A stretch of DNA of 64,000 bases from positions 1 to 64,000 of the forward strand of contig JALOBN010000003.1 in assembly GCA_023228245.1 (NCBI GenBank), in the 5' to 3' direction. The notes below the pieces were generated by a model. That model searched no databases. It saw only the letters and a program-made list of their open reading frames with translations, and was not told the DNA's origin. This DNA is from Candidatus Pacearchaeota archaeon. GTDB lineage: Archaea; Nanoarchaeota; Nanoarchaeia; Pacearchaeales; GW2011-AR1. This document shows positions 1,429-56,007 of this stretch, in pieces. Position numbers and translations under genes: made by a program. Positions within the stretch are counted from its first letter, which is position 1; each line of letters starts with the position of its first letter.

Positions 1429-1492
1429 AAATGGCCTCGAAGTTGAAATAGGAAATTTCTCATTCGATTCCATTTAAAATAAATGGCCTCGA
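1429..1492 (-). repeat. Mini hairpin insertion A at the tRNA-Lys 3' end
   Basis: The 12-bp sequence aaatggcctcga occurs perfectly twice (1429-1440 and 1481-1492), repeating the 3' end of tRNA-Lys. The 40-bp insert between them, read on the minus strand, contains GAGAAATTTCCTATTTCAAC, a hairpin with a TTTCCT loop. The same core ends insertions B (nrdG) and C (tRNA-Val), at the same distance from the right-hand repeat. Confidence 0.7.
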
Positions 1493-1558
1493 GGGGATTT
1501 GAACCCCCGACACCTGGATTAAAAGTCCAGTGCTCTAACCAGGCTGAGCTACGAAGCC
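1484..1558 (-). tRNA. tRNA-Lys(TTT)
   Basis: A full cloverleaf on the minus strand. Acceptor GGCTTCG pairs with CGAGGCC, discriminator A, anticodon loop CTTTTAA on stem CTGGA/TCCAG, T-loop TTCAAAT. The anticodon TTT reads AAA/AAG. No intron and no encoded CCA. Both ends of the gene are copied again in flanking DNA. Confidence 0.95.
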
Positions 1559-1655
1559 ATATCTGAATTAATGTTTCGTAGCGAGAAATGTGTTTTAAAC
1601 ATTTCTACCAGCGTAGTTTCTTTTCTAAAGAAACCCGTGAACTACGAAGCCATAT
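1546..1655 (-). repeat. Insertion duplicating the tRNA-Lys 5' end
   Basis: The 17-bp stretch garctacgaagccatat is present at 1546-1562 (inside the tRNA 5' end) and again at 1639-1655, with one mismatch. The 76 bp between them hold two hairpins: agaaatgt/acatttct around 1584-1606 and gtttcttt/aaagaaac around 1616-1634, plus a cgtagcgagaaa string like those in the other small insertions. No coding potential was seen. Confidence 0.6.
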
Positions 1656-1700
1656 GTTAATTTGTTAGAAATCTTAATTTAAAAAAGCTTTGGAATTTCT

Positions 1701-2018
1701 CTAAATAAATTTTTTCAGTCGTCTTTCCAATTCATCTGCTTCCATTCCGCCAACAAAATTTTCTATAACTTTTCCGTCTTTTAATAAAACAAAATTTGGA
1801 ATTGAACTAACATTAAATTTTCTCGCGAGAGTTTCATTCTCGCCGACATTAACTTTTCCGAATTTTATTTTTTTAGAAAATTTTTCTGAAACTTCCTCGA
1901 CAATCGGCCCCATCATAACGCAAGGCATACACCATTCTGCAAAAAAATCAATAAACACAAGTCCGCTTTTTATAAAATCATCAAATTTTTTCCCGCTTAA
2001 TTCAACAACATTTTCCAT
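1701..2018 (-). CDS. trxA: Thioredoxin
   Basis: A 105-residue single-domain thioredoxin, the usual length for the family. The redox site is WCMPC at about residues 29-33 and the cis-proline loop is SSIPNFVLLKDG. It is a cytoplasmic protein-disulfide reductant. The gene stands alone beside the dNTP-synthesis block; NrdD of the anaerobic type normally uses formate rather than thioredoxin, so a direct link is unproven. Confidence 0.92.
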   Translation of the reverse strand: MENVVELSGKKFDDFIKSGLVFIDFFAEWCMPCVMMGPIVEEVSEKFSKKIKFGKVNVGENETLARKFNVSSIPNFVLLKDGKVIENFVGGMEADELERRLKKFI

Positions 2019-2108
2019 TTATATTTAGAATTATTCAATTTTATAAAAGTTTTGAAATATATTTTTAGTAATAATCTTATTTAAAAAAGAAATATATTTC
2101 CTATAATT

Positions 2109-3281
2109 ATGCAAATAAAATTAGTTGGTTCTACAAACAGAATTAAAAAACTTCAAACAGCAAAACGTTTTGTTCAAAATCACGCTAGAGAATGTTATTC
2201 TGAAAAAAGTTGGGATGAATTAATTGGAGAAGATTTTCAATCAGGATTAGTAAAATCATTAATTACCCGAGGACATCACAGTCCTTTCGACCATTTTCAA
2301 TTAAATTTTGAAATAAGGCAACTTCCAAAAATATTAGCAATGGTTTTGAACAATCAGGGAGTTTATACTACTTCAGAAAAATCCGCACGATATACTGTGA
2401 TGTCAGATATCAATCCCCATCAAAAAGAATTATATGATAAGTGGAAAGATTGGTATCTGGATGAAATAAGTTCTAGATTTCCAGAATCGACATTTTCAAA
2501 ACTTCATAAACGAGGAAGTGATGGAAAAACTCCGGCAGAAAAACTTTCTCAGGAAAATGCAAGATATGTGACAAGTGTTTTCACACCAACAAATATGACA
2601 CATACAGTTTCATTAAGACAGGCAAACATTCTTTATCATTTCTTTAATGATTTTATAGAAGAACATAATGATTCTTCAAACGAATTCAAAAAAAGATTAA
2701 CTGAACCAATGAAAGAATTTGTAAATTCTGAAGAAATACAAAAATGGATTATTAAAGAAGCACAAGTAAAAATGAAAGGTGGAATTCCTTTAAGATTCAT
2801 AAGAGATTCTGAAGTTGAAGAACATTTTGGAGAAGATATTTATTCAACAAATTATGATGCAAGTTTTGCTTCTTTTGCACAATTACAGCGACACAGATTA
2901 TCTGTTTATGATATTTCTGGAGGATTTGAAATTGGTGCATCAAAAGGATTTTATGTTCCACATTTAATTAAAGATTCAAGTAAGGAAAACGAGTGGTTAT
3001 CTGATTTAGAATCTGTTTCACAATATGATTTTCCCCAAGCTCAACTTTTAAGGGTTGGAGAAAGAGGAATGCGAGAGAATTTTCCAGCTAAATCAATTGA
3101 AAGGCTTTGCGGACTTGCTCAGTTAGAAACTGCTAAAATTGTTAGTGATGTTGGACAAAAATATTCTGAATATATTCCAGAAATGGAAAAATATGCAAAA
3201 CCTGCTTGTGAAGTTGAAGAAGGATGTAAAAAAGGAGGATGTATTTTCGGAAAAGAAAATTATCTTTCAAGATTAATATGA
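2109..3281 (+). CDS. thyX: ThyX-type flavin-dependent thymidylate synthase, double-domain form
   Basis: Converts dUMP to dTMP using methylenetetrahydrofolate and FAD. At 390 residues it is far longer than ordinary ThyX (about 220-250). The first half has the HHSPFDHF entry motif (56-63), SEKSARYT (89-96) and a downstream ARYVTSVFTPTN helix. The second half carries QLQRHRLSVYDISGG (258-272). The usual ThyX signature joins RHR and S-RY in one segment; here RHR is kept only in the second copy and S-RY only in the first. The C-terminus has three cysteines. The stop overlaps the tmk start (ATGA). Confidence 0.82.
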   Translation: MQIKLVGSTNRIKKLQTAKRFVQNHARECYSEKSWDELIGEDFQSGLVKSLITRGHHSPFDHFQLNFEIRQLPKILAMVLNNQGVYTTSEKSARYTVMSDINPHQKELYDKWKDWYLDEISSRFPESTFSKLHKRGSDGKTPAEKLSQENARYVTSVFTPTNMTHTVSLRQANILYHFFNDFIEEHNDSSNEFKKRLTEPMKEFVNSEEIQKWIIKEAQVKMKGGIPLRFIRDSEVEEHFGEDIYSTNYDASFASFAQLQRHRLSVYDISGGFEIGASKGFYVPHLIKDSSKENEWLSDLESVSQYDFPQAQLLRVGERGMRENFPAKSIERLCGLAQLETAKIVSDVGQKYSEYIPEMEKYAKPACEVEEGCKKGGCIFGKENYLSRLI

Positions 3282-3949
3282 AAGGAAAATTAATTACCAT
3301 AGAAGGAACAGATGCTTCTGGAAAAGATACGCAAACAACTCTTTTATGTGACAGATTAAAGAACGAAGGATTTTTTGTTGAAAGAAATTCTTTTCCAAGA
3401 TATAATACTCCGACGGGAAAAATTGTTGGCGGGCCTTTATTAGGAAAACCTGAAATTTCAAAAAGTTATTTTGAAAAACCTGCCGAAGTTGATCCAAAAG
3501 TTGCTTCTGCTTATTATGTAGCGGATAGAAGAAATAGTTTGCCTTTTATTCAAGAAATATTAAACTCTGGAACTCATTTAATTTTAGATAGATATGTTGA
3601 GTCAAACCACGGACATCAAGGGGGAAAAATTAGAGATCCCGACGAGAGATTAAATTTTTTTAGATGGCTTGACCATTTAGAATATAATATGTTTGAACTT
3701 CCTCGTCCGGATTTAACTTTGTTTCTTTACATGCCTTTTGAAAAAGGAATAGAATTGAAATCAAAAATGGGAGTTCAATTAGATGGAGTAGAAAAAGATT
3801 TTGATTATTTAAAAAATTCAGAAGAATCTTATTTGCAATTAGCAGATTTTTATAATTGGAAAAAAATTGATTGTGTTTGGGAAAATGGGTTAAAAACCAA
3901 AGAAAATATTCACGAGGAAGTTTATAAGATTGTTAAAGAAATTTTGTAA
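3278..3949 (+). CDS. tmk: Thymidylate kinase
   Basis: Phosphorylates dTMP to dTDP, the step after ThyX. The P-loop is EGTDASGKDTQ at residues 8-18 and the DRYVESNHGHQGG segment carries the DR motif and LID-type region. The ATG at 3278 was chosen because it overlaps the thyX stop as ATGA and puts the P-loop at the normal N-terminal position; an earlier in-frame ATG at 3239 lies deep within thyX. 223 residues. It ends directly against the convergent dut gene with no intervening base. Confidence 0.92.
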   Translation: MKGKLITIEGTDASGKDTQTTLLCDRLKNEGFFVERNSFPRYNTPTGKIVGGPLLGKPEISKSYFEKPAEVDPKVASAYYVADRRNSLPFIQEILNSGTHLILDRYVESNHGHQGGKIRDPDERLNFFRWLDHLEYNMFELPRPDLTLFLYMPFEKGIELKSKMGVQLDGVEKDFDYLKNSEESYLQLADFYNWKKIDCVWENGLKTKENIHEEVYKIVKEIL

Positions 3950-4426
3950 TTATTTTCCTGTACTTCCGAATCCGCCTGTTCCTCTTATTGTTTCTGAAAG
4001 TTCATTAACTTCTTCAACTTCTGCAGTTTCTATTTTCTGAATTAATAACTGTGCAATTTTCTGCCCTTTTTTAATTTCATAATCCTCCGACGACAAATTA
4101 ACTAAAATAATTTTATATTCTCCTCTGTAAGTATGTTCAATGACTCCTCCCATTGTTTTAATCCCTTTCAGTGCAATTCCGCTTTTATCCCAGACTAGAG
4201 AAACATAACCTTTTGGTAATTCAATAGACAAACCCGTTTTTATTAATGCACGGTGTTTTGGTTTCAAAATTAAATCTTCTATAGAAAATAAATCCATTCC
4301 GGCATCTCCGACATGAGAATATTTTGGAATTATTGCGTTAGGATTTAATTTTTTAATTTTAATTTTTACTTTTTCATCTTGGATATTTTCCAATTCAATT
4401 TTTGTTTTTTCATTTTGTTTTTTCAT
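3950..4426 (-). CDS. dut: dUTP diphosphatase
   Basis: Hydrolyses dUTP to dUMP, supplying ThyX substrate and keeping uracil out of DNA. All five trimeric dUTPase motifs are visible in order: DAGMDL, KSGIALKG, GVIEHTYRGEYK, GQKIAQLLI and the C-terminal RGTGGFGSTG arm. Motif 3 has Glu where Asp is common (GVIE). About 25 extra charged residues precede the core. Its start overlaps the stop of the dCMP deaminase gene (ATGA), so the two are coupled. Confidence 0.93.
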   Translation of the reverse strand: MKKQNEKTKIELENIQDEKVKIKIKKLNPNAIIPKYSHVGDAGMDLFSIEDLILKPKHRALIKTGLSIELPKGYVSLVWDKSGIALKGIKTMGGVIEHTYRGEYKIILVNLSSEDYEIKKGQKIAQLLIQKIETAEVEEVNELSETIRGTGGFGSTGK

Positions 4427-4941
4427 TGATATATTTCTCTCGACGCTGTGTCTTTTAGAATATTAACGCACCTTTGAATATCTAATTCTAACTTTCTAAT
4501 TTTGATTCCTCTTGTTAAAAAAATTTCTTTTGTTAATTTGCTCGGTTCTTGATATTCTTTTAAATACACGACTTCTCCAATATTATAATTGGCTATTCTT
4601 CTTGCACAATTATTGCATGGATAATAAATTGTGTATAATGTTGCATCTTTTGTTCTTTCTTTTCCTGCTTCACTTAATGCATTGTCTTCTGCATGTAATC
4701 CAATACATTCTCCAGTTTCTTTTGTATTAAAGTCAACGCCAAATTTTTCTTTTCTGCATCCCAACTCAAGACAATTTTTTATTCCTTCGGGTGCTCCGTT
4801 ATATCCTTCACTTTTAATTCTTCTATCTTTTACAACCACAGCACCACTATGCAAATGTTGGCAACTTGAACGTGAAGCAACTGTTATCGCAGCCATCATA
4901 AACATTTCATCCCAAGTTAATCTTTCATCTTTCCAATCCAT
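4423..4941 (-). CDS. Deoxycytidylate deaminase family protein
   Basis: Zinc-dependent deaminase of the dCMP/ComEB type, predicted to make dUMP from dCMP. The catalytic HAE motif is in GLHAEDNAL and the PCNNCARR motif supplies the two zinc cysteines. Further cysteines (NCLELGC) resemble the second zinc site of dCMP deaminases. 172 residues, typical size. The position directly before dut, and opposite thyX-tmk, supports a role in dTTP supply. Confidence 0.88.
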   Translation of the reverse strand: MDWKDERLTWDEMFMMAAITVASRSSCQHLHSGAVVVKDRRIKSEGYNGAPEGIKNCLELGCRKEKFGVDFNTKETGECIGLHAEDNALSEAGKERTKDATLYTIYYPCNNCARRIANYNIGEVVYLKEYQEPSKLTKEIFLTRGIKIRKLELDIQRCVNILKDTASREIYQ

Positions 4942-4978
4942 ATTTTAAAAAAATAATTCTCCTTTTTTAAGATTTATA

Positions 4979-5758
4979 TTATCTAATCTTCGTGTTGGGA
5001 AGATATTTAATTGCTTCGTCTTTTCCTTTTTCTAAAATTTCCGAAGGTGTTTTTGAAAAAGTTTCCATTCGTAAATCAAGAAGTTCATTTTCTCGAGGAA
5101 CAAATTTTTGTAAAAAATATTTATGTTGATTACTCCCAGTGCAGTCATAAATTAATTTTGCAGTTTCTCCAATTTCTTTCGGCGTCATAAATGAAATAAC
5201 TGGAGCCGAGTGAGAAATTTCCTGTTTCGACTCTGGCGTCATAAAACTTATTTTTTTATTTTTTCTAATTACGGGAACAACGGTTGTTCTAAATTCATAA
5301 TCTGGAAATTGCGAAACAATTGCAATTGATTTTTCATAACTGTCTTTTGCATCAATGAATTCTTTTCCAATTAAATCAGCATAAATTTGAGCCGGACCTT
5401 TTACATCCATTGCAACATAGTCAATTAAATTTTCTTTTTTTAAATTATCGAGTAAACTATAATTGCTTCCGTTTGTATCTAATTTAATTGTCAAACCTTT
5501 TTCTTTAATTTTTCTTGCAAAATAAATTAAATCTGGTTGCAGCGTCGGTTCTCCTCCGCAAAGAACAACCCCATCAATCCAGTTTTTTTTTGAATCCAGA
5601 TAATCAAAAAAATATTTTTCGTCAATAATTTTTCCTTCTTCTAAAAGATGTTTAGCATGACAAGTTGGACAACGATAATTACATTCTGGAGAAAATAAAA
5701 TTACAGAAAGTTTTCCGGGGTAATCTGTAGAAGAAATTTGAAAATTTCTTATTTTCAT
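4979..5758 (-). CDS. nrdG: Anaerobic ribonucleotide reductase activating protein, with in-frame insertion
   Basis: Radical SAM enzyme that generates the glycyl radical on NrdD. The CxxxCxxC cluster motif reads CNYRCPTC near residues 27-34, followed by GGEPTLQPD. Near residues 170-195 the peptide ISFMTP occurs twice, 18 residues apart. The DNA shows this to be a 43-bp hairpin insertion flanked by an 11-bp direct repeat (5181-5245), adding exactly 18 codons without breaking the frame. The start overlaps the nrdD stop, so it is coupled to nrdD. 259 residues is longer than bacterial NrdG. Confidence 0.9.
   Translation of the reverse strand: MKIRNFQISSTDYPGKLSVILFSPECNYRCPTCHAKHLLEEGKIIDEKYFFDYLDSKKNWIDGVVLCGGEPTLQPDLIYFARKIKEKGLTIKLDTNGSNYSLLDNLKKENLIDYVAMDVKGPAQIYADLIGKEFIDAKDSYEKSIAIVSQFPDYEFRTTVVPVIRKNKKISFMTPESKQEISHSAPVISFMTPKEIGETAKLIYDCTGSNQHKYFLQKFVPRENELLDLRMETFSKTPSEILEKGKDEAIKYLPNTKIR
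5181..5245 (+). repeat. Mini hairpin insertion B inside nrdG
   Basis: The direct repeat ggcgtcataaa lies at 5181-5191 and 5235-5245. The 43-bp insert ends with a near-palindrome gagtgagaaatttcctgttt followed by cgactc. The repeat period is 54 bp, a multiple of three, so nrdG stays open. The core matches insertions A and C. Confidence 0.75.
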
Positions 5759-8700
5759 TTTTCTAAATAATTTTTAATCGCAGATTCTGCTTCTTTAAGA
5801 TTTATAGGAATTGTTGTTCCGTTTCTTCCTTTAGTTTCTCCTCGGTAAATTACATTTGAATTTTTATCAAGAATAATTAATACCGGAAGTTGTGATAAAT
5901 TTACATCTCCTAGCATCGCCTGAACTAAACCATCTTCAGTGTTTGCTTCGTAAGAAACTACATTAAATTTCTCACCATATTCTTCAGCAATTTTTTTGTA
6001 TTTGCTAACTTGCTTTACATCATCACATAATGGACAATCATTTTTCCCGATGCTGATTGCAGTAATTCCGTCATGAGGATTTTTCAAATGGGGAACTTCC
6101 CTCATTTCAGACGTGGAGTTTTTCATAGAATAATTTCCATTTTCTCTTGCAGTAAGTTCACCGCCTTTTCCTTTTGATTCATTCCAATCTTTGAAAGGAT
6201 CGCTGTAATAACCAACAACTCTTGTGAGCCAACCCATTGTGTCTTTTTCTTCATTTCCACAATTTCCACATTTTTTAACTAAACCTCTCTCGGTGCTACT
6301 GCATTTTTTACAGATTGTAAACTCGGGACTTATTACTAATTGTGCTGTTTGTGTATTTTCCCAAGTTTTTTTGATAAGTGAATAAATACTTTCAGCGTCG
6401 GGTTTCTCTTCTCCAACAAATGCGTGAGTTATTGCACCAGAATCAATTGCTGGATGGAACTTTGCTTGTAACTGGATTCTTGTTATCAAATCAATTGGAG
6501 CGTCAGCTCTTGGATGTATTGAATTTGAATAATAAGTTTTGTCACCTGCAATATCTCCTCTGATAACATCTTTTGATTCAGGAAATCTTTTCAAATCTGT
6601 TTTACTCAATCTTCTCGTAGCTGATTCAGCAGGACTTTCTTCAAGCGAGAATTTCATTCCAAATTCCTCGCCGTATTTTTTTGCCTGAATATTCATATGT
6701 GCAATTGTCTTCAATGCATTGTTGCTAAATTCTTCAGAATTCATTTCATGAATTTCTTTTCCAGTAATAAATTGAACTGCTTCATTTAACCCAATCATTC
6801 CAATTATATACGTTGATTTATCAACGTTAATATAAGGTTGCCCGTCTAAACTAGGTCGTCCTGTTTGCCACTGCGGTCTTCCTGGTTTTTGAAGTGATTT
6901 AATATACTCTTTTTTTTGAATATGTGCACGAACTACAATTTCCATTGTCTTATCAATTTCTTCAAGAAGTCCTTCAATATTTTTCTTTCCATTCCTAACT
7001 GCACGATATGCTGCTTGCGGAAGATTTATTGTAACATTTTGAAAACCGCAAAATCTCATTGATTCAGGATGTTTCAAAAAATAATTATCTTCTATCTTGG
7101 TTCTTAATCTACAACATGCTGCAAGGGAAACTTCATCTCTATCAAAAACAAAATAAGGCGAACCATTATGACTTGCAACCTCGCAAGCTTCATGTAAAAT
7201 TTCTTCTTGTTCGGAATCTGTAAAAGTATCTTTATCTAAATGTAAATCACATTTTGGGAATGCAAACGGCTGCCCATACTTATCGCCTTTTTTCCACACT
7301 TTCAAAAGATTCTTTGCAAATTTTTTTGTAATTTTATCAAAGTCACCATAGGTTATTGGTTTTTCATTTTCATCTAAAAACCATTCTTGAATTAATTCAT
7401 TACCTTCTTCACCGTCGAGTTTCTCTCGCATAACCATTTTTCCAGTTTCATCTAAAAGTTCCATCAGTGAATAACCTGATTTTGTTTTTTCTTCAAGTTT
7501 ATTTTCTTTTAGGAAAATTGTCTTCCCATCTCTTTTAATTCCATATTTTCCTCCAGGCAAAACTGCGATGGTATCTTTCATATAAACAGGAACTCCAGTA
7601 TGAATATTAAAATCAATAAATAATGTCTGTCCTCCTCGTGAAAACGCATTTTGTGATGCAGCATAAATCACTTCTTGTCCTCTTTGTTGCATGAAATTAT
7701 CAATTTCTTCTTCGGTTAAAATAGAAATAGGATTCTGTTTCCACCCCATTAATTCTCTTTCTAATTTAGAAAATATTTCTTCCGCACCATTTTCAGAAGA
7801 GGGAAATTCTTGTTTAATTCTATCTAATTCTTTCATTCTATCATTAATTCTTTCCAAACCTTTTTCTTCCAAATCAGATTCTATAAGTGGAGCATACATA
7901 ACGTTAAAATAACCAACTCCAAGAGCCCCTGCATAATATGCTTGCATCGCAGCAAAAAAAGTATTCAAATGTCCTGTTAATGTTTCAGTATGCTTTGCAG
8001 GTGAAGATGCAGTTTGCAAGTTATTTAATTCAAGTCCAAATTTTTTCAAATATTCTAATGAATGTGCAGAACAATAAACTCTCGTAGGTAAATCTAAATC
8101 ATGCAAATGAATTGCTGCATCTGAATGGGCTCTTGCAATTTCTCCATCAAAAATTCTCGTTAATGCATACTCTTTACCAATCATTCCTGCAATAGTAAAA
8201 TTTACTGCTTCAGGATTATTTGTTTTAATATTGCTGTTCTCTCCATTCTTTTCTCCGATTATTTTTTCTAAATCCCCTTTTGGAATAATAAAATTTCTGT
8301 ACCTCTCAGCTGCTTCATGAAATCCAAGTTTTCTCAATTCTACATTTGCAAATTCTCTTATCATTCCAGTTGTTACTAAATTAACTTTTGAAAGAACAAT
8401 TTCATTTTCTACATTTTTTGCAACGCCTTTTGCAGTGTTTAAATCTACGTTTGCTTCATCAATTAATGAATAAACAATTCTTTCTCGGTCCCAACCAGAA
8501 GTTATATCTTCTGTTTGTGATGAAACCATTAAGAAGCTATCTGTCGAACTTTTGCTTCCAGATTCTCCAAGAATTCTAACTTTTTTTCGTTTTTCAGCAT
8601 AACTTTCAAAAGCATCCGCGACGAGAGGGAAACCCGATTCTCTTATGGATTCTATTGCTCTTGAATTAATATAATCAACATCTGGCATATTTCCATTTCC

Positions 8701-8877
8701 TGAAAGTTTTTCTAAAGTAATTTCAGTACATCTTTCAATTGCTTCTGGATTTTTTTGTCCGATGCTATCAAATGCTTTCCCTATGGCATGTTTTATTTTT
8801 TCAGAATCAAAATTTACTAAATTACCATCCCTTTTTTTTGCAACTTTCGGAAGCTTTAAATCCACTTCTAATGTCAT
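5755..8877 (-). CDS. nrdD: Anaerobic ribonucleoside-triphosphate reductase with C-terminal thioredoxin-fold domain
   Basis: Oxygen-sensitive class III reductase making dNTPs from NTPs. At 1040 residues it is much longer than the usual 600-800. Order of domains: two ATP-cone regulatory domains (about 10-100 and 120-205), the catalytic barrel, a four-Cys zinc site (C856, C859, C870, C873), and the glycyl-radical motif RVVGY with Gly889. After that, where the protein should end, comes an extra domain (about 935-1040) with CPLC at 948-951 and a SQLPVLIILD cis-Pro strand, a thioredoxin/glutaredoxin fold. No intein motifs were seen. Operon order is nrdR-nrdD-nrdG. Confidence 0.93.
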   Translation of the reverse strand: MTLEVDLKLPKVAKKRDGNLVNFDSEKIKHAIGKAFDSIGQKNPEAIERCTEITLEKLSGNGNMPDVDYINSRAIESIRESGFPLVADAFESYAEKRKKVRILGESGSKSSTDSFLMVSSQTEDITSGWDRERIVYSLIDEANVDLNTAKGVAKNVENEIVLSKVNLVTTGMIREFANVELRKLGFHEAAERYRNFIIPKGDLEKIIGEKNGENSNIKTNNPEAVNFTIAGMIGKEYALTRIFDGEIARAHSDAAIHLHDLDLPTRVYCSAHSLEYLKKFGLELNNLQTASSPAKHTETLTGHLNTFFAAMQAYYAGALGVGYFNVMYAPLIESDLEEKGLERINDRMKELDRIKQEFPSSENGAEEIFSKLERELMGWKQNPISILTEEEIDNFMQQRGQEVIYAASQNAFSRGGQTLFIDFNIHTGVPVYMKDTIAVLPGGKYGIKRDGKTIFLKENKLEEKTKSGYSLMELLDETGKMVMREKLDGEEGNELIQEWFLDENEKPITYGDFDKITKKFAKNLLKVWKKGDKYGQPFAFPKCDLHLDKDTFTDSEQEEILHEACEVASHNGSPYFVFDRDEVSLAACCRLRTKIEDNYFLKHPESMRFCGFQNVTINLPQAAYRAVRNGKKNIEGLLEEIDKTMEIVVRAHIQKKEYIKSLQKPGRPQWQTGRPSLDGQPYINVDKSTYIIGMIGLNEAVQFITGKEIHEMNSEEFSNNALKTIAHMNIQAKKYGEEFGMKFSLEESPAESATRRLSKTDLKRFPESKDVIRGDIAGDKTYYSNSIHPRADAPIDLITRIQLQAKFHPAIDSGAITHAFVGEEKPDAESIYSLIKKTWENTQTAQLVISPEFTICKKCSSTERGLVKKCGNCGNEEKDTMGWLTRVVGYYSDPFKDWNESKGKGGELTARENGNYSMKNSTSEMREVPHLKNPHDGITAISIGKNDCPLCDDVKQVSKYKKIAEEYGEKFNVVSYEANTEDGLVQAMLGDVNLSQLPVLIILDKNSNVIYRGETKGRNGTTIPINLKEAESAIKNYLEK

Positions 8878-8878
8878 G

Positions 8879-9316: not shown

Positions 9317-9445
9317 TTTTTACATACAAGATATTGTAGGTTATATTATATATTCACCTATCACTTGTATAGACAAATAAGTCAAAAATAAAATACTATT
9401 TAAAGATTTATTACTACAAAAAAAAGTAACACAGACATACAAGAT
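9317..9445. promoter_or_regulatory. Divergent promoter region with repeated acatacaagat motifs
   Basis: The 178 bp between nrdR and the next gene holds acatacaagat twice (9322-9332, 9435-9445) and an inverted partial copy acttgtatag (9363-9372). The first copy continues into tacaagatattgta, a near-palindrome resembling an NrdR box (ACA-rich arms round an AT core). On the minus strand an AATATATAATATAA TATA-like element lies about 25 bp before it. This suggests NrdR autoregulation; no other function was seen in the gap. Confidence 0.5.
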
Positions 9446-9494: not shown

Positions 9495-9749
9495 ATGCAA
9501 GAGTATCTAAATGAGGTGTTGACTCAACTCGGAATTCCTCTGTGGATGTTCGTAATGTTTTTAATTTGGTCTTATACCTGGAAACTTTTAGCTTTCTGGA
9601 AATCTGCAAGAAAAAATTCTCCTGTTTGGTTTATACTTTTCGCATTCCTTAACACCATCGGTATTCTTGAAATTCTTTACATATTTATTTTTTCAGAAAT
9701 GAAGAAAAATAATTTCAAACATAAGAAAGCATTAAAGAGAAAAAGATAA
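9495..9749 (+). CDS. DUF5652-like small membrane protein
   Basis: 84 residues with two predicted membrane helices (about 15-35 and 45-67) and a basic tail. The pattern W-TWKLLAFWKSAR followed by WFILFAFLNTIGILEILYIF matches the DUF5652 family common in uncultured small-genome prokaryotes. Function unknown. It is transcribed from the region shared with nrdR. A TATA-like aaaatatttaaac at about 9471 precedes the start. A mini insertion begins at its stop codon. Confidence 0.75.
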   Translation: MQEYLNEVLTQLGIPLWMFVMFLIWSYTWKLLAFWKSARKNSPVWFILFAFLNTIGILEILYIFIFSEMKKNNFKHKKALKRKR

Positions 9750-9803
9750 TTATTTCTTCCTGCGAACACAGTGAGCAGATATGAAATAAGTTAATTATTT
9801 CTT
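9747..9803 (+). repeat. Mini insertion D between convergent genes
   Basis: The 12-bp repeat taattatttctt lies at 9747-9758 and 9792-9803, and the second copy is the last codons and stop of the downstream minus-strand thiolase gene. The 33-bp insert cctgcgaacacagtgagcag plus atatgaaataagt shares CGAAC-N2-AGTGAG-N8-AAA with insertion E at 35992. Confidence 0.65.
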
Positions 9804-28907: not shown

Positions 28908-29019
28908 TGGGCGCGGAGGGAATTGAACCCCCATATGCTGCTCTCTCTGCAAATTTGCGGAGATTGGAAATCTCTGATTTGCTCTGGAGGCAGCCAGTCT
29001 GCCGTTAGCCTACGCACCC
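28908..29019 (-). tRNA. tRNA-Trp(CCA), intron-containing
   Basis: 112 bp. Acceptor GGGTGCG pairs with CGCGCCC, discriminator A; T-loop TTCAATT. Anticodon stem GCTGC/GCAGC encloses loop CTCCAGA only if about 38-41 bases are removed after position 37. The intervening stretch folds as GCAAAT/ATTTGC with an inner AGAT/ATCT hairpin. Trp tRNA introns at 37/38 are common in archaea. The D-stem is poorly paired, so the call rests on the anticodon and acceptor arms. Confidence 0.8.
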
Positions 29020-35130: not shown

Positions 35131-35231
35131 TGAAAAATACTAAATTCATACAATTGAAAGCAAATATAAAATTTCCAATCATTCGTATGTTCATACAAAT
35201 GAAAGGAGGTAAAAATGAAAAAAGAAAATAA
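35130..35231 (+). CDS. Possible small ORF between wHTH and SIMPL genes
   Basis: 33 codons, starting at an ATG overlapping the wHTH stop (TAATG) and ending inside the SIMPL start region. Basic, encodes the related peptides KFIQLK and MFIQMK because of a DNA repeat. May be a translational coupler or chance. Confidence 0.25.
   Translation: MKNTKFIQLKANIKFPIIRMFIQMKGGKNEKRK
35145..35205 (+). repeat. Mini insertion F between wHTH and SIMPL genes
   Basis: The 16-bp repeat ttcatacaawtgaaag lies at 35145-35160 and 35190-35205 (15 of 16 match). The 29-bp insert contains aaaatttcc. Across the right junction sits the near-palindrome attcgtatgttcatacaaat (35181-35200), a possible operator just before the ribosome-binding site aaggagg. 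Confidence 0.55.
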
Positions 35232-35977: not shown

Positions 35978-36041
35978 TTTTTTTCTTTATTCGAACGAAG
36001 TGAGAACGACAGAAAAAATAATAAATGATTTTTTCTTTATT
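35978..36041 (+). repeat. Mini insertion E downstream of the SIMPL gene
   Basis: The repeat ttttttctttatt is at 35979-35991 and 36029-36041. The 37-bp insert cgaacgaagtgagaacgaca plus gaaaaaataataaatga aligns with insertion D. The repeat is low-complexity, so it counts less alone. Confidence 0.5.
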
Positions 36042-43341: not shown

Positions 43342-43351
43342 AAGTGTTTGT

Positions 43352-49310: not shown

Positions 49311-49350
49311 AATATATATTTAAAAATATATAAAATATAATACATATAAG

Positions 49351-50205
49351 ATGGTGAAGAAAAAAGAGAAAAATTCTAAGAAAAATAAAAAGGAAATTTC
49401 TAAAATGAATAAAGAAGATTTTCCTTCTTTGCAATTAAAACTTGAATCAGATATCGCAATGGATTTCGCGACGAAAGCTTACAAAACTTACGATAAACTT
49501 GTAAAATCAGTTGTGTTATTTGGCTCGTCTGTAAAACAAACTGCCGTTGCTAATTCAGACATAGATATAATATTAATTATTGATGATGTTACAATAAAAT
49601 GGGACCAAGAATTAATCGCATGGTATCGTGAAGAACTTGAAAAATTATTAAGAAAAAACCCTTACCAAAAAAGTTTGCATATTAATACAATAAAATTAAG
49701 CACGTGGTGGGAAGATTTAATGAGGGGCGACCCTGTCGTCATAAATGTTTTACGTTATGGTGAAGCAATGCTCGACTTCGCAGGATTTTTTGAACCTTTG
49801 AAATATTTATTACTGCAAGGAAAAATTAAATCTACACCCGAAGCAATTTACAGTTGTCTTCAAAGAGCACCAACGCACTTTTTGCGAAGCCGTGCAGCAG
49901 AAATGAACGCAATTGAAGGTTTGTATTGGGCAATGGTTGATTCTTCTCACGCAGCACTGATTTCAGCAGGAATTCCGCCGGCGTCACCAGAACATATTCC
50001 TGCAGATTTGAAAGAAGTTTTCGTCGACCCAGGAAAATTAAAAATGAAATATGTAATTTGGTATAGAGATTTGTATATGCTTCATAAAAGAATCGTCCAC
50101 GGCGAAACAACAGATTTGAAAGGGGTTGAAATAGATATGTGGCAAGAACGAACTCAAGAATTTATGGGCGTAATGGCTCAATTAGTTAATGAGAATGTAA
50201 AATAA
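49351..50205 (+). CDS. Nucleotidyltransferase-domain protein
   Basis: 284 residues. VVLFGSSVKQTAVANSDIDIILI is the Pol-beta MNT signature GSx...DxD. A helical C-terminal domain follows (LQRAPTHFLRSRAAEMNAI..., then LHKRIVHGE, HEPN-like). Related in plan to the protein at 53265-54827. Not a simple toxin-antitoxin MNT because both domains are in one chain. Its 3' end is duplicated downstream. Confidence 0.8.
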   Translation: MVKKKEKNSKKNKKEISKMNKEDFPSLQLKLESDIAMDFATKAYKTYDKLVKSVVLFGSSVKQTAVANSDIDIILIIDDVTIKWDQELIAWYREELEKLLRKNPYQKSLHINTIKLSTWWEDLMRGDPVVINVLRYGEAMLDFAGFFEPLKYLLLQGKIKSTPEAIYSCLQRAPTHFLRSRAAEMNAIEGLYWAMVDSSHAALISAGIPPASPEHIPADLKEVFVDPGKLKMKYVIWYRDLYMLHKRIVHGETTDLKGVEIDMWQERTQEFMGVMAQLVNENVK

Positions 50206-50308
50206 TAATTTTTGGTTCTTTTGTAAAGAACTTCGACGACTTCCTCCGTCGGGTTTTGCAGGATATTAGAAAAACTCGCTGGTGGTCTCCTTTAGTTAAT
50301 CAGAACGT
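50182..50308 (+). repeat. Insertion duplicating the 3' end of a coding gene
   Basis: ttagttaatsagaaygt is present at 50182-50198 (end of the nucleotidyltransferase gene) and 50292-50308 (15 of 17). Between lie stems gttcttt/aaagaac and cgacg/cgtcg with a ttcctc loop, and cgctggtggtctcc, which resembles cgctggtggttccc at 22055. Confidence 0.55.
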
Positions 50309-50482
50309 TCAGTAATTTTTTTCATCTACTGAATCTAAATATAAATCTGCAATCTTATTAAGATATTCTTCTCTTTCTTTATGATTCATTGTTTTAACTT
50401 CAGCATGTAATAAAGCTTCACTATCATAATCTCCCCATTTTTCTTTTAATTTTCTTGTTATTTCTTCCAAGGTTTCGTTCAT
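50309..50482 (-). CDS. Small acidic protein, unknown
   Basis: 57 residues: helical, with KLKEKWGDYDSEALLHAEV and NHKEREEYLNK. Start overlaps the stop of the next gene up (ATGA). Last of three coupled small genes. Function unknown. Confidence 0.5.
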   Translation of the reverse strand: MNETLEEITRKLKEKWGDYDSEALLHAEVKTMNHKEREEYLNKIADLYLDSVDEKNY

Positions 50483-50664
50483 AATGAATGCCCTCCGATT
50501 GTTCCGTTTCTGTAAATATCTTTTATAATACTTTCAGGTCCTCTTTGACTAATTGAATTATATCTAACACCTTCGTTAATAGTCATCCGATATAATATTT
50601 CATAATCATTCATATCTATTCTTTTTTTTCTTGTTTCTTCATTTGTAGAATTTTCTTTATTCAT
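50479..50664 (-). CDS. Small protein, unknown
   Basis: 61 residues from the ATG at 50664, chosen because GGAGG lies eight bases upstream and the ATG overlaps the previous stop. Charged N-terminus, then YEILYRMTINEGVRYNS. No family recognised. Confidence 0.5.
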   Translation of the reverse strand: MNKENSTNEETRKKRIDMNDYEILYRMTINEGVRYNSISQRGPESIIKDIYRNGTIGGHSL

Positions 50665-51188
50665 TTCTTTTCCTCCTTCGGTTCTTCGCAAACTAATTTT
50701 TCTAAACCAGAAGTAATTCCCTTTGATTCATCGCCGACAAGTTCAACAATTTTCTTATTAATTCCATAACTCATTGCCATTCCAATTAGAGTGCCAACTT
50801 CTTTTTTATCCAAATCAACAACGTATTTGCCTTTGTAACTTTCTTTAATATTTCCCTTAGCTCCAACATATTTAACAATATCATCAACTTTAAGCATTGC
50901 AAAAGATTGTTGAATTATTGATACTGAACTATTTTGAATATAAGGAGAAGTAACTGCTCCGCCTTCATTTGACAATTGTGGTGCAAATAATCTTTCATAC
51001 ATTTCTTGAGAAGGAACTTTTTGAATTAAAGCAGAATATTTTTCTCTCGCACCTTCTGAAAGCTTTCCGAAGTTTTCAAAAGTTACAAGTTTAGGTAAAG
51101 CATAATCCCAAAGCTGGCTCGCAATATTTTTCAAAGCAACAGCTCGTCCTTCTTCTCTTTCTTTTCCGTCATCTTTTTCGTTTGCCAT
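50661..51188 (-). CDS. Unknown soluble protein
   Basis: 175 residues, helical first half, mixed second half (KGKYVVDLDKKEVGTLIGMAMSYG). No family recognised. First of three coupled genes (51188-50309), just upstream of the ribosomal pair's end. Confidence 0.6.
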   Translation of the reverse strand: MANEKDDGKEREEGRAVALKNIASQLWDYALPKLVTFENFGKLSEGAREKYSALIQKVPSQEMYERLFAPQLSNEGGAVTSPYIQNSSVSIIQQSFAMLKVDDIVKYVGAKGNIKESYKGKYVVDLDKKEVGTLIGMAMSYGINKKIVELVGDESKGITSGLEKLVCEEPKEEKK

Positions 51189-51252
51189 AATTAATTCAGA
51201 ATTTTAAACTATATAAATATTTCGTTTGTAGTTACTTAACAAAGGTAACAAA

Positions 51253-51789
51253 TTATTTCTTTATTGTATAAACAGTTCCTGTCTTACAAGGAAGTTTTGC
51301 TTTAATCTGTTTTAGAATTTTTCTGCAGAAAGAAACTGCTTTCGGTGTAGCGACGGAAAGAGACATAATTGGCGCTCCTTTTTTCATAATCGCAGCCTTA
51401 GCAATAGTTTTACCAAAAGACAACTGCATTCCTGTCTGCATTCTGTCTGCACCTGCTCCAGTCAGCATTTTGTTTTCTCTCTGAACGTGATGTGTGAAAG
51501 GAATAACTCTGAAAAAATATTGTCCGCCAAGTTCCTCGTCGAGTTTCTTGTTGATAAATTGTCTACAAGCTTCAAGTGCGTTTTGTCTTATCTGAACATT
51601 TTCAAGTGTTACAAGAGTTAAAGTGTGGGGTAATTTTCCGTCTTCGAAATCGACTCTCTTTCCCATTCTGAATTTTACAATCTTCGACGGTGGAACCGCT
51701 TTTATGTAAGCTTTCTGTCTTTTCTTACTGATTCTCGTGTAAGGCGTAACTTTCTTTTTAGAATATGCGTAAGCTTTTCTTAATGCCAT
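51253..51789 (-). CDS. rpl10e: Ribosomal protein uL16 (archaeal L10e)
   Basis: 178 residues. PYTRISKKRQKAYIKAVPPSKI, then PFTHHVQRENKMLTGAGADRM, the tRNA-approaching loop, are the L10e signature. Co-transcribed after eL33, with abutting ends. Confidence 0.95.
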   Translation of the reverse strand: MALRKAYAYSKKKVTPYTRISKKRQKAYIKAVPPSKIVKFRMGKRVDFEDGKLPHTLTLVTLENVQIRQNALEACRQFINKKLDEELGGQYFFRVIPFTHHVQRENKMLTGAGADRMQTGMQLSFGKTIAKAAIMKKGAPIMSLSVATPKAVSFCRKILKQIKAKLPCKTGTVYTIKK

Positions 51790-52047
51790 TTATTTTATCT
51801 CCACTTTAGTTGTTACAGCTTGTCCGGGAAGTCCTTTCTCAAAAATAGCCCTAACAACACCTTTATTTCCGTGAGCACCAGATATTTTACCGACGATCTT
51901 TTTTCCCGCAGGAGATTTCCACTCAACTTCTTTTCCAACTAATTTTTCCGCTTTTTCCCTGTCAGAAACTCCTTTAATTTCTATAAGAAAATGTCTATCA
52001 ATAATAGTTTTTCTTCCACGTCTGAATTGTATAACTTTGCCTTCCAT
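51790..52047 (-). CDS. rpl35ae: Ribosomal protein eL33 (L35Ae)
   Basis: 85 residues from ATG 52047; a GTG six codons upstream is possible but less likely. KVIQFRRGRKT, then VEWKSPAGKKIVGKISGAHGNKGVVRAIF, the L35Ae core. Confidence 0.93.
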   Translation of the reverse strand: MEGKVIQFRRGRKTIIDRHFLIEIKGVSDREKAEKLVGKEVEWKSPAGKKIVGKISGAHGNKGVVRAIFEKGLPGQAVTTKVEIK

Positions 52048-52072
52048 TTTATGATATGTTAACACAAGAAAT

Positions 52073-53185
52073 TTAGTTTTTAAAGTTTCTCATTACAACA
52101 ACGCTTCTCCCAATAAAAGAACTTTCACGAAATTCGTCAATCGGAAATCCTTTTTCTATCCCCAAACCAGTTTGCGACGATATTTTTTCAAAGTCGCACG
52201 AAAATCTTTTCTTTCCAGAAAAAACTAAAGGAGCTGTAAAAACAATTTTTCCATTAACGTCTTTTTTCAAATTATTAATAACGTCAATAATAAGTTTTTC
52301 AAATTCTCCGAGAATTTTTTTTGTTGTTTGTAGCGACGGAACTCTTCTTTGCAATTCTCCTAAATCAGGTTCAGTCGCGATTCCATTAACTTTTGAAATT
52401 TTAATTTTTGAAGAATCTCCGTTGATAAGTTTATAATTTGACTTATCAAATTTGAACCATTCAAGATTTTGTTTTGCTCCTTGAATTGCTTTTTTATCTA
52501 CGTCAATTCCGACAACTTTTATATTTTGCAAAAGTGCTTCCTGCAAAACAACACCAATTCCACAGAAGGGGTCAAGTAAAGTTTCGCCTTCTTCAACTTG
52601 TGAAAGATTTATCAAAATCTTCGCTAACCTAGGAGAAATAGAAAGTTCATGTCTTCGAACAGGTTTTTCCATATCTCGTTTTTCAATTTTTTCATAATCA
52701 CAAACTTCAGTTATCTTTCCAAAACAATTTCCAAAAACAAAAAACTGCACGTCAATTAAGTTAGATAAAACTTTCACAGCGTCGCTGCCGTCCTGAAGCT
52801 GAATTCTTCCTGTAATTTTCTTTTCAGTCGCTTTTATTTTTTCATCTTTGAATCTGTATTTCAAATAATTTCTAATTTCTTCAAAATCTTTTCCGCCAAA
52901 ATCAAAGACAACATAATTCAATTTATTGCCTTTTCCAAAATAAAGTTCTTGTTTGTCTAATTGCTTTGTAATTTCTTCAAACTTTCCTTCTGCAATTACT
53001 TCTCCGACAGAAATAACTCCGCCGAATTTATCTACGACGTTTTCAACTTTTTTCTCTGTCTCAACTAAAATTCCATTGCTAACTTTTGAAATTATTTTGA
53101 ATGAAATATTCGATTTTTCTAAAAAAGATTTTACTTCTTCAACAGACAAATCAACATTTCTTCCAAGGATAAAAACTTGTTTCAT
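52073..53185 (-). CDS. THUMP-type tRNA guanine N2-methyltransferase (Trm11/TrmG10-like)
   Basis: 370 residues. N-terminal THUMP-related RNA-binding half (about 1-165); then the SAM-binding motif LLDPFCGIGVVLQEAL and GIDVDKKAIQGAKQNL. The catalytic motif, normally DPPYG, reads TEPDLGE, as in some archaeal relatives. Likely modifies G10 of tRNA. Confidence 0.85.
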   Translation of the reverse strand: MKQVFILGRNVDLSVEEVKSFLEKSNISFKIISKVSNGILVETEKKVENVVDKFGGVISVGEVIAEGKFEEITKQLDKQELYFGKGNKLNYVVFDFGGKDFEEIRNYLKYRFKDEKIKATEKKITGRIQLQDGSDAVKVLSNLIDVQFFVFGNCFGKITEVCDYEKIEKRDMEKPVRRHELSISPRLAKILINLSQVEEGETLLDPFCGIGVVLQEALLQNIKVVGIDVDKKAIQGAKQNLEWFKFDKSNYKLINGDSSKIKISKVNGIATEPDLGELQRRVPSLQTTKKILGEFEKLIIDVINNLKKDVNGKIVFTAPLVFSGKKRFSCDFEKISSQTGLGIEKGFPIDEFRESSFIGRSVVVMRNFKN

Positions 53186-53264
53186 TCAAGTAATTCCTCC
53201 TTAGTTGATTGTAAAACGAAGTTTTCCATAATTAAATTAGAAATCTAGAGGTTAAAAAACTATT

Positions 53265-54827
53265 TTATTTTTTCTCTTCTTTTTTCAAAACTAATTCGCA
53301 TCTCTGATTATATTCAATAATATCATTGATTAAAATTGAAGCGTTCTTTCTTGCCTGATCAATTTTGTGTGAATCTGATTTTCCTTTTTTGAATTCAGAA
53401 CGTGCATGAACAATATCTTTCAAAATTCTAAGATGTTGCGGAGCAAACTTTGCTTTCTTTACTAATTTATTTTCAAATTCTTCAATAAGCACATCCTGAG
53501 ATTTATTACCCAACATCGCTTTCAAAAGTGTGAAAACATCTTTGTAAATTTCTTCAATAGTTTTTTCCTGACTTCTCTTTTCAATTTGTTCTCTAAGTTC
53601 TTTCAATCTTTTCAAATAATCTTCAGTATCTTTTACTAATTTATCAACTTTAACTCCAGAAATTTCTTTAATTTCCTCGTGCTCATAACCTCTCCAAATA
53701 TCAACAACACTTTGCAAAAAATCTAAATATTTTTTCTCAATCATTTTAGTATCATAAAATTCTCTCTTGAAATCTCTAGTCAATTCTTTCTTTGCGTTGG
53801 GTGGCGGGCAACCGTTCAACATTAACAAAGCTTGTGCGGGCGTCGTAACTCCCCAGAAAATTTCATTAACAACAATATCAAGCAAACCAGACTTGACTCT
53901 CTTAACGGTCTTATCTCCCATCGACATAAACATATCAATCGCTTCAGGTGAAGGTTTCAATTTTCCCATTCGCAGCAAAGATTTCCATGGCATGAAAGTA
54001 TGCCTGTCATAAATTGGAATTCCATCTCTAATAAAAGTAAAAATTACAGGATGAGCATCTTTAACAGATTCCCAGAAATCAGTAAGCAAATAAATCTGCG
54101 GTGACAATTTATTTTTAACACCAGCAATATTCGAAGCCTCTGCAACGTACTGATAAATAATCGAACGCAATCTTTCTTTTAATTCCAAACGCGGCATTTT
54201 CTTAACGTCTGTATCATTAATAATTACAAAAACATCAACATCAGAAGTTGGAACAGCTTCTCCTCTTACAAGACTTCCGCCAATAACATAACTTACAACA
54301 TACTTTTCAAATTTCTGGAGAACAAGTGATTTGTGAATTTCTGCAACTCGCAAAGCTCCAAGAATTCCTGTATCGTGCAAAGGATAAGACATTGCAACTG
54401 CTTGTGCCAATTCAAATTTGCTATCAAGACAAAGTTCCCATAAATCCATAGGCGTCTTCAAATGCAACCAAATTTTCTGTTCCATTCCTTCAAGTTGTTT
54501 AACAATTTCTTCTTTAATTTTCGGAGTTTCCTTAAATTTGTCTTCTGGAACAATAACAAAAAGATGGGTGTATTTCTCAGTTTCTTTTGGAACTTCCTCT
54601 TCCTCAATAAATAATTTTATCGACGCTGGAGGTAAAATTCCAATCATTTGGGTGAAAGGATATTTTTTCAAAATAAAACTTTTAATTTTTTCAAACTCTT
54701 TTTTCGTCTTATCAATATCTTTTTTAACTGGTGCTTCAGGAATTAAATTTTTTTTATCAGAATATTTGTTGTCAAGATTCATTTCAGGAATATCATTCTC
54801 GTCACGTTCCTTATCCTTAGTCATCAA
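53265..54827 (-). CDS. Nucleotidyltransferase-domain protein, long form
   Basis: 520 residues. The MNT signature is VIGGSLVRGEAVPTSDVDVFVI near residue 190. An N-terminal domain (about 40-170) looks like a degenerate copy of the same fold. C-terminal helical region (SMGDKTVKRVKSGLLDIVV, then LLMLNGCPPPNAK) matches the protein at 49351-50205 in plan. Paralogues. Role unknown. Confidence 0.8.
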   Translation of the reverse strand: MMTKDKERDENDIPEMNLDNKYSDKKNLIPEAPVKKDIDKTKKEFEKIKSFILKKYPFTQMIGILPPASIKLFIEEEEVPKETEKYTHLFVIVPEDKFKETPKIKEEIVKQLEGMEQKIWLHLKTPMDLWELCLDSKFELAQAVAMSYPLHDTGILGALRVAEIHKSLVLQKFEKYVVSYVIGGSLVRGEAVPTSDVDVFVIINDTDVKKMPRLELKERLRSIIYQYVAEASNIAGVKNKLSPQIYLLTDFWESVKDAHPVIFTFIRDGIPIYDRHTFMPWKSLLRMGKLKPSPEAIDMFMSMGDKTVKRVKSGLLDIVVNEIFWGVTTPAQALLMLNGCPPPNAKKELTRDFKREFYDTKMIEKKYLDFLQSVVDIWRGYEHEEIKEISGVKVDKLVKDTEDYLKRLKELREQIEKRSQEKTIEEIYKDVFTLLKAMLGNKSQDVLIEEFENKLVKKAKFAPQHLRILKDIVHARSEFKKGKSDSHKIDQARKNASILINDIIEYNQRCELVLKKEEKK

Positions 54828-54903
54828 TAAAAAAAATCTGGCAAATATATAAACGTTGCGAAACAGAAAATTTAAAAGACAAAACAGCGTTATAAAAAAA
54901 GAG

Positions 54904-55842
54904 ATGATAATCGATTTAATTTTATGCCTTGTATTTTTATTCGTTTTAATTAAAAGTTCAAATTACGCAATAAAATATTCGTCTCAGCTTGCAAAAAAAC
55001 TTCACCTATCTCAATTCGTCGTAAGTTTTTTTATCATCGCAATTATTTCCGCACTCCCAGAATCAACAATCGCAATTATTTCTGCAATTAATGGAGAACC
55101 AAGTTTAGGGGTAGGAACTTTGCTTGGTGGAAACATTACAGATTTAACTCTAGTATTCGGACTTGTTGCTTTAATTTCTTCAAGTGGAATAAAAGTAGAA
55201 AGTAAAATTCTGCGAAATAATCTTTTATATTTAATTATGCTTTTTGTTCCAATTGTCCTAGGCATCGACGGAAAATTCTCAAGAATTGACGGGGCGATAT
55301 TAATTGCTTTAGGGATAATATTTTTTATAAGAATTTATAAGAACAGCACAAAATTCAGAAAAAAATTCCGTCATCCAAATAACGTGCACTTTGCGAAAAG
55401 TCTTTTCTTTTTACTGATAAGTTTAAGTTTAATTTTAGTCAGTGCGTATTTCACAGTAGAGTTTGCAACAAATTTCGCTAAAGAAATCGGCGTGCCATTG
55501 GTAATTATAGGAATTACAATAATTGCATTCGGAACTTGTCTGCCTGAATTAATAATTTCAATAAAATCAATAAAAGCAAACACAGACGAAATCGCCCTCG
55601 GAGATTTGTTAGGAACAGTAATGACTGACGCAACAATAGTTATGGGAATCGTCGCGCTGATTTCTCCTTTCAATTACGACTTTTCAGGATTTTTTATGAC
55701 TGGCGTAACAAGATTTATCGCAGGAATTTTCGTTATCGTATTTATGAAAACAGGCAAATCAATAAATAAAATCGAGGGCATCTTCCTAATTTTATTCTAC
55801 ATTTTATTTATCTTTATAGAAATTATGTTAAGTTATATCTAA
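54904..55842 (+). CDS. Sodium/calcium exchanger family protein (YrbG-like)
   Basis: 312 residues, about ten membrane helices in two inverted repeats. ATG 54904 was chosen; the upstream frame starts only with TTG. First alpha repeat ISALPESTIAIISAI...GTLLGGNITD, second FGTCLPELIISIKSI...GDLLGTVMTD. The second repeat lacks the Asn of the usual GSN. Ion specificity uncertain. Confidence 0.85.
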   Translation: MIIDLILCLVFLFVLIKSSNYAIKYSSQLAKKLHLSQFVVSFFIIAIISALPESTIAIISAINGEPSLGVGTLLGGNITDLTLVFGLVALISSSGIKVESKILRNNLLYLIMLFVPIVLGIDGKFSRIDGAILIALGIIFFIRIYKNSTKFRKKFRHPNNVHFAKSLFFLLISLSLILVSAYFTVEFATNFAKEIGVPLVIIGITIIAFGTCLPELIISIKSIKANTDEIALGDLLGTVMTDATIVMGIVALISPFNYDFSGFFMTGVTRFIAGIFVIVFMKTGKSINKIEGIFLILFYILFIFIEIMLSYI

Positions 55843-55880
55843 CCCAAATCTTATAAATGCTGATTTTCTAAAATAATCAA

Positions 55881-55951
55881 GGTCCATTAGTCTATCGGTA
55901 GAACACCTCGTTTACACCGAGGAAGGAGAGGTCCGACTCCTCTATGGACCA
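55881..55951 (+). tRNA. tRNA-Val(TAC)
   Basis: Acceptor GGTCCAT/ATGGACC, discriminator A. Anticodon stem CCTCG/CGAGG with loop TTTACAC, anticodon TAC. T-arm AGAGG-TCCGACT-CCTCT: base 55 is C rather than T. No intron. Confidence 0.93.
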
Positions 55952-56007
55952 TTGTAAAACAAAGGAACATAATACAAGAATTTCCTGTTCTTGCTTTATG
56001 GACCATT
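55943..56007 (+). repeat. Mini hairpin insertion C at the tRNA-Val 3' end
   Basis: The repeat tatggaccatt lies at 55943-55953 (the tRNA 3' end) and 55997-56007. The 43-bp insert ends in acaagaatttcctgttcttg, a 6-bp-stem hairpin with loop tttcctg. Period 54 bp, as in nrdG. Confidence 0.75.

Follow-up and report, generated by a model that had tools for sequence, protein, structure and literature searches.

Three sites, named A, B and C, in the stretch of Candidatus Pacearchaeota DNA analysed here (contig JALOBN010000003.1, positions 1 to 64,000; hereafter the window, 64 kb, 31% G+C) carry short insertions that are genuine and form a single family. Each is probably a copy of a mobile, non-autonomous hairpin about 40-43 bp long. 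Members of the family duplicate 10-12 bp of their target, are homologous across sites and genomes, have relatives free of the insert, and fold together with their right repeat as one hairpin. An earlier note on this DNA had listed six repeat-insert-repeat sequences, A to F, all of which are present, at or no more than one base from the positions given there. Its suggestion of a non-autonomous element held for A, B and C (common core, target duplications, insert-free relatives and extra copies in relatives) and found no support for D, E and F.

Three insertions of one family

Site A (1429..1492, minus strand) lies at the 3' end of a tRNA-Lys(ttt) gene (1483..1559, minus strand, recognized by ARAGORN and Rfam) that was also the target of an insertion on its 5' side (see below). 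Its two target copies (1429-1440 and 1481-1492, TCGAGGCCATTT on the minus strand) form an exact 12 bp repeat with a period (d) of 52 and enclose an insert of 40 bp (1441-1480). Site B (5181..5245, plus strand) displays target copies at 5181-5191 and 5235-5245 (GGCGTCATAAA), i.e. an exact 11 bp repeat with d 54, on both sides of a 43 bp insert (5192-5234). It is located inside nrdG (4979-5758, minus strand), in frame, where it adds 18 residues to NrdG and repeats the residues FMTP. Site C (55943..56007, plus strand) is again positioned at a tRNA 3' end, that of tRNA-Val(tac) (55881-55951), with target copies at 55943-55953 and 55997-56007 (TATGGACCATT; exact 11 bp repeat, d 54) and a 43 bp insert (55954-55996).

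The three inserts have in common a core of about 34 bp, in one orientation when A is read on the minus strand. A covariance model, R1, was built on five copies (A, B, C and those of genomes G001 and G026, described below); it scored its own members A, B and C at 66.7, 53.9 and 53.5 bits, respectively, and the next-best match in the window at 14.5. Targets displayed CCAT or CCA at A, C and the copies G001, G026, G168:C7 and G170:C3:250196, and TCAT at B.

The number of direct repeats in the window exceeded expectation. Exact repeats of at least 11 bp at spacing 40-58 numbered 11, versus a mean of 1.77 and a maximum of 6 in 100 order-3 Markov sequences. Those with at least 4 G/C were three, precisely A, B and C (mean 0.23, maximum 1; none of the 100 simulations reached 3), and the eleven other spacing classes of the real window held 1-7 repeats overall and 0-2 with at least 4 G/C. 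An earlier run of six simulations gave the same picture. Chance AT-rich repeats are a very improbable explanation, being excluded for A, B and C by these counts and by the copies in relatives; what speaks for chance comes from sites D, E and F, treated in the last section.

Relatives without the insert were found at all three sites. Genome G001, a Candidatus Pacearchaeota draft (L001), was the sole relative obtained from a contig scan with NrdD (70% identity over residues 10-440), the anaerobic ribonucleotide reductase encoded in the window next to its activase NrdG, together with a TCP-1 chaperonin. The other relatives (G handles) are draft genomes that belong to G001's family, order or class, and copies of the source organism itself were counted within the window. 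The insert of B was missing from all 23 aligned NrdG homologues (selected among the best 120 of 7398), the closest of which was 76% identical. For site A, nine relatives were read at the tRNA-Lys(ttt) whose linked gene is thioredoxin-like, and seven of them (G001, G170, G046, G128, G130, G131 and G134) had no copy; the orthologous tRNA carried an insert of the A-C family in G168 and an insert of another kind, together with an 8 bp copy, in G077. For site C, tRNA-Val-like matches occurred at 21 places, and by eye none of the 16 flanks read there had a copy, the matches being taken without a check of gene neighbours and two of them stopping before the tRNA end. The earlier note had reasoned that close relatives all carrying the same sequences, with no empty site, would speak against mobility; insert-free relatives were found for each of A, B and C, so that this objection does not apply to them.

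Two side observations were made among these flanks. At L146 (G001:C10, 3' of 3848), a copy-free tRNA-Lys(ttt) flank starts with TGAAGGACTGAGA, which by eye is like the start of the G170 element and is possibly a remnant. Some tRNA-Val-like matches were split by gaps, of 445 bases for L191/L196 (G001:C13 395-917) and 63 bases for L189/L197 (G026:C16 22143-22277), which are probable introns.

Hairpin structure and pairing with the target

The earlier note had described the inserts as hairpins in themselves. Folded alone, they gave z values of 0.37 (A), -1.43 (C), 0.43 (E) and -2.84 (D), and for B the values were -0.55 (family orientation) and -2.56 (complement); a hairpin formed by the insert alone was consequently rejected, most folds being weak, those of A, B, C and E among them. 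The insert of D did fold on its own. For the A-C family the claim was recovered once the right repeat was included, as insert and right repeat fold as one hairpin (z -2.6 to -5.1 in the five copies). Its layout comprises an outer stem (arm and repeat), an internal loop by GGAA (GGAG in B), a second stem, another internal loop and a terminal hairpin.

Double changes were observed in 9 of 14 pairs across the five copies. The covariation score was 0.586 against 0.301 for shuffled sequences (0/500 shuffles as high, no slid version near), for a structure derived from the same five sequences, which detracts from the case for a mobile hairpin. For this reason, a further test was carried out on cores chosen by core sequence. 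Own flanks paired better than those of others in a set of 100 cores covering all loci, a large share of them brought in by the model itself (-7.30 vs -5.40 kcal/mol; 0/2000 permutations as low). The same was observed against permuted flanks for 34 cores in 354 kb of G090, on contigs selected for holding matches and with a 27 bp tandem family dropped before permutation (1/5000 as low). Arm and target covary over the set of copies, not at each single site.

Within the insert, the target recurs in inverted and imperfect form, most clearly at tRNA-Lys. A strict test of this inverted copy, made site by site, was passed by A, by the G001, G026, G168 and G170 copies and by loci L049 and L055. The inverted copy reached p<0.05 in 7 of 26 duplications, many of them homologous, and was not upheld as a rule for every tRNA duplication; the combined Fisher value for inverted copies, 6e-5, treats homologous copies as independent. 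Exact 7 bp inverted arms, sorted by spacing class, gave no clear signal. Locus L055 (G031) is a tRNA-Ser(gct) whose 5' end has a 15 bp copy and whose insert has a AATTTCCTATT core and a target-matching arm (p 0.035).

The plan of the element would be as follows: target, AT-rich linker, imperfect inverted target arm, a small conserved hairpin (GAAAT-UUCCU-AUUUC) and second target copy. An enzyme acting in trans may cut the target with a stagger of about 11 bp and insert the hairpin there. The target would be chosen because it resembles the target copy of the donor, via pairing with the arm, and this pairing might be tightened later by quasipalindrome correction or selection. The arm of B (TGGAGCCGAG) resembles the tRNA-Lys arm (TGGAACCGAG in G168), and the B and tRNA-Lys targets have 6 of 8 bases in common (GGCGTCAT and GGGGCCAT). 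Because of this tRNA-Lys-like arm and the similar targets, target choice by likeness to the donor's target is preferred to the idea that each insertion produces a new inverted copy.

Template switching offers another origin, in which replication stalled at hairpins would fold back, copy the target inverted and then copy it again, with no mobility enzyme. The inverted target copy within the insert of the tRNA-Lys copies fits such a process, and so does the accumulation of several unrelated inserts at tRNA ends, which fold (see below). In the part of PMC8794818 available, hairpins are reported to be created and repaired by template switching, and the correction of imperfect palindromes in this way is a known process. 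Nevertheless, we consider this origin unlikely. The core is homologous among the nrdG, tRNA-Val and tRNA-Lys sites and among genomes; the target copies of B are identical, yet its arm is imperfect and tRNA-Lys-like instead of a fresh copy of its own target; and inverted copies reach p<0.05 in only the above-mentioned minority of duplications. Reverse complementarity between the insert and its adjacent sequence is partial, covering the arm of tRNA-Lys copies and not the core. The template-switch product envisaged in the earlier note thus leaves the conservation of the core across loci and genomes unexplained if taken as the pure origin, and may stand as a process keeping the arms matched.

Copies in relatives and at tRNA-Lys ends

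Further copies of the A-C type were uncovered in related genomes by a sequence pattern and by the covariance-model search that the earlier note had advised. When as many as 3 mismatches were allowed, a pattern derived from A and B matched 2 of the 95 genomes of G001's family (G001 and G026), at one place each, and none when reversed. Both copies lie directly 3' of tRNA-Lys(ctt), and after each of them the final 11-12 bases of the tRNA region are repeated. Model R1 matched 26/95 genomes of this family at E 0.1 (many surely by chance), 11/200 genomes of the order at E 1e-4 and 5/378 of the class at E 1e-5. G301, among the last five, was rejected as a family copy, its match being a plain hairpin by eye.

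The strongest copy outside the window was G168:C7, which lies at tRNA-Lys(ttt) and has a 10 bp target copy (66.3 bits). It was followed by those of G001 (65.1 bits), G026 (55.7 bits), G170:C3:250196 (42.3 bits, 11 bp target copy TTCGGGGCCAT) and G168:C14 (39.6 bits, 10 bp target copy). Four of these five (39.6-66.3 bits) duplicate a tRNA-Lys-type 3' end. ARAGORN found no tRNA at G170:C3:250196, but its right flank resembles that of the G001 tRNA-Lys(ctt) copy. Among 26 model matches, one of which was cut by a contig end and dropped, an upstream target copy was significant (p<0.05) in 15 of the 25 testable ones, in one case barely, and in 10/20 without the five model members. A viral source was also considered and rejected: in IMG/VR the degenerate core gave one match, beside a tRNA on a viral contig and judged to be chance, and a longer pattern gave none.

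The ends of tRNA-Lys genes are hot spots for such duplications, in which several unrelated inserts are involved. Among 48 tRNA-Lys genes selected by tRNA similarity alone, a copy of the 3' end of at least 10 bp, 30-120 bp further on, was found in five, compared with 1/48 control flanks situated 140-280 bp away. For copies of the 5' end upstream, the counts were 10/47 and 0/46, respectively. When all loci were taken together, including those selected by matches (76 tRNAs), there were 10 copies on the 3' side and 13 on the 5' side, versus 0 and 0 in shuffled flanks. In the end-copy counts, tRNAs with too little flank were dropped. By eye, the inserts at tRNA-Lys ends fall into several unrelated groups.

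The tRNA-Lys of the window displays end copies on both sides. The insertion at its 5' end is of a different kind (1549..1655, minus strand): 14 bp copies (1549-1562 and 1642-1655) flank an insert of 79 bp, in which two hairpins are visible by eye, and a similar insert was seen by eye upstream of tRNA-Lys(ctt) at L136 (G071). Three more groups of inserts beside tRNA-Lys, alike within each group by eye, have tRNA-end copies of 12-19 bp (L118, L137 and L158; L139 and L142; L155 and L164).

A functional RNA or cis-regulatory hairpin (tRNA trailer or mRNA leader), maintained by selection and copied along with genes, would agree with the compensatory changes in the stems and with the many copies that, by eye, lie just upstream of gene starts in G090. 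It is rather improbable, being at odds with the position of B within coding sequence, with related genes that do without the insert, and with the Rfam search, where only tRNA exceeded the gathering threshold at A, B and C.

Genome G090 provided some observations of its own. In the copies just upstream of gene starts (L081-L100), read in gene sense, several open small reading frames that end at the next start codon. Tandem repeats of 27 bp on TATGCAAAATTTCCTGTTTTG, including the hairpin core, occurred at L082 (16890-16932), L095 (11627-11696) and L099 (7019-7061). Direct repeats in this genome were commoner at 24-71 bp, with 39 and 45 per bin versus 12-28 elsewhere.

Known elements, sites D to F and other features of the window

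Mobilising enzymes were searched for in 24 genomes, i.e. 14 carriers and 10 others. The carriers were 10 of the 11 genomes with a match at E 1e-4 (G029 omitted) together with G085, G071, G031 and G077, chosen for weaker matches or tRNA copies; the ten others are not clean negatives, some having tRNA-end copies or a weak match. Cas1 was found in none of the 14 carriers and in one of the ten others, Y1 transposase in 2/14 and 1/10, and tyrosine recombinases in 10/14 and 9/10, respectively. The absence of Cas1 and the scarcity of Y1 are weak evidence, since the genomes are incomplete.

Casposons are kilobase elements with cas1 that target tRNA 3' ends and produce duplications of about 14 bp, and IS200/IS605 hairpins are moved by Y1 transposase and are not known to give target duplications. 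The insertions might accordingly be mini-elements of a known system, i.e. of a casposon/Cas1 integrase or of IS200/IS605, or attachment sites left behind by integrative elements. The type of target and its duplication are reminiscent of casposons, a hairpin with a target-pairing guide recalls IS200/IS605, and tyrosine recombinases are present in most carriers. We regard such a source as hardly probable in view of the Cas1 and Y1 counts, with the limit just mentioned, of the lack of target duplication in IS200/IS605, and of tyrosine recombinases being just as usual in the other genomes. Integration of larger elements is, in the accessible text of PMC9897764, a known origin of partial tRNA copies in archaea, but the integrations there measure about 9-23 kb, against 40-43 bp here.

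A non-autonomous mobile hairpin remains the preferred reading, and several points weigh against it. No mobilising enzyme stands out among the 24 draft genomes searched. Terminal inverted repeats or fixed ends were not found, the insert ends differing among copies by eye. The inverted target copy is not significant at B (p 1.0) or C (p 0.23-0.26), and a significant second target copy is missing in 10 of the 25 testable model matches. The G168:C14 copy is located away from tRNA ends. Much of the tRNA-Lys evidence could represent a few old insertions, vertically inherited. Finally, carrier and comparison genomes are incomplete drafts and E-values are rough.

Among described elements, Rickettsia palindromic elements are likewise small, palindromic and non-autonomous, and some of them are inserted in frame in genes and in RNA genes (PMC2229807, PMC10969869, as far as the available text of both goes). 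They differ there by a size of 105-146 or about 150 bp, by an encoded peptide and by a target duplication entered as '?' in PMC2229807, while A, B and C measure 40-43 bp and display an 11-12 bp duplication and a target-like arm. Against the likeness in scale drawn by the earlier note, the present inserts are smaller, with 40-43 bp versus 105-150 bp. As to reading frames, B is in frame, and frames look different among G090 copies by eye. YPAL/RU-2 of Yersinia also displays internal inverted repeats without a terminal TA motif, target duplications of 3-26 bp and targets at or adjoining dyad symmetry; it is 168 bp long, not A+T-rich and enterobacterial, and an inverted target copy is not mentioned in the portion of PMC2229807 at hand. 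Repetitive extragenic palindromes (REPs) are dispersed palindromes of 20-40 bp, distinguished by a GTAG or CGTC tag and, for GTAG REPs, by a REP-associated tyrosine transposase (RAYT, of the Y1 type) as partner, according to the available text of PMC3733652. By eye, the A, B and C inserts have neither tag, and Y1 was found in 2 of the 14 carriers.

Casposons resemble the present elements by tRNA 3' end targets with target duplication and differ by their size and by cas1, which had no match in all 14 (incomplete) carriers. Prokaryotic miniature inverted-repeat transposable elements (MITEs) have in common with them a target site duplication (12, 11 and 11 bp in A, B and C); terminal inverted repeats were not seen by eye, and no parent element was found, none having been searched by ends. 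In the available parts of the descriptions of the nearest kinds (MITEs, Rickettsia palindromic elements, REPs and YPAL), none described the combination of 40 bp, 11-12 bp duplications and a target-like arm. Literature on such elements in DPANN archaea was not encountered either, judging from titles and abstract starts, in a scope mostly outside subscription journals.

More speculatively, the family may stand for a new class of mobile DNA, a proposal that we would not expect to hold in full: a gene-free hairpin of about 40 bp, without terminal repeats, which locates its target by means of arm-target pairing (at tRNA ends and AUG-like CAT sites), duplicates 11-12 bp and then co-evolves with each target, the unrelated tRNA-Lys inserts of the order being relatives in kind. 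If A, B and C are indeed mobile hairpins, they would rank with the smallest mobile DNAs that duplicate their target, in small-genome archaea where Cas1 and Y1 transposases were mostly not found. They raise the testable questions of what inserts a 40 bp hairpin and whether insertion is guided by target pairing. The tRNA-Lys insertion hot spots of this archaeal order may also mislead the annotation of tRNA fragments and gene starts.

Evidence for sites D, E and F is weak, and they were rejected as members of the A-C family. Site D (9747..9803) has an AT-rich 12 bp repeat (d 45, insert 33 bp), site E (35979..36041) a T-rich 13 bp repeat (d 50, insert 37 bp) and site F (35145..35205) a repeat of 15/16 bases (d 45, insert 29 bp). 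The repeats of D and E contain one G/C each, and that of F one mismatch. R1 gave no match at these sites in the window, as an A-C-type model that would miss a different family, and inverted target copies in their inserts were not significant (p 0.066, 0.453 and 0.122 for D, E and F, respectively). It is on these features that chance repeats find their support. The motif CGAAC-N2-AGTGAG, which the earlier note had found common to D and E, does occur free of mismatches at these two sites only; with two mismatches it is at chance level (7 vs 7.6 expected). Nor did the preference for gene 3' ends claimed there apply throughout: it is seen at A, C and D, whereas B is within a gene, and each of E and F is located between two same-strand open reading frames.

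Two minor observations concern tRNA-like sequences. A phage collection queried with positions 1400-1700 of the window returned 231 matching records, and, among the matches listed, the tRNA part of the query was covered. At 28908-29019, Rfam recorded a tRNA match of 112 bases (41.7 bits), absent from the ARAGORN list, which is possibly an intron-bearing tRNA.

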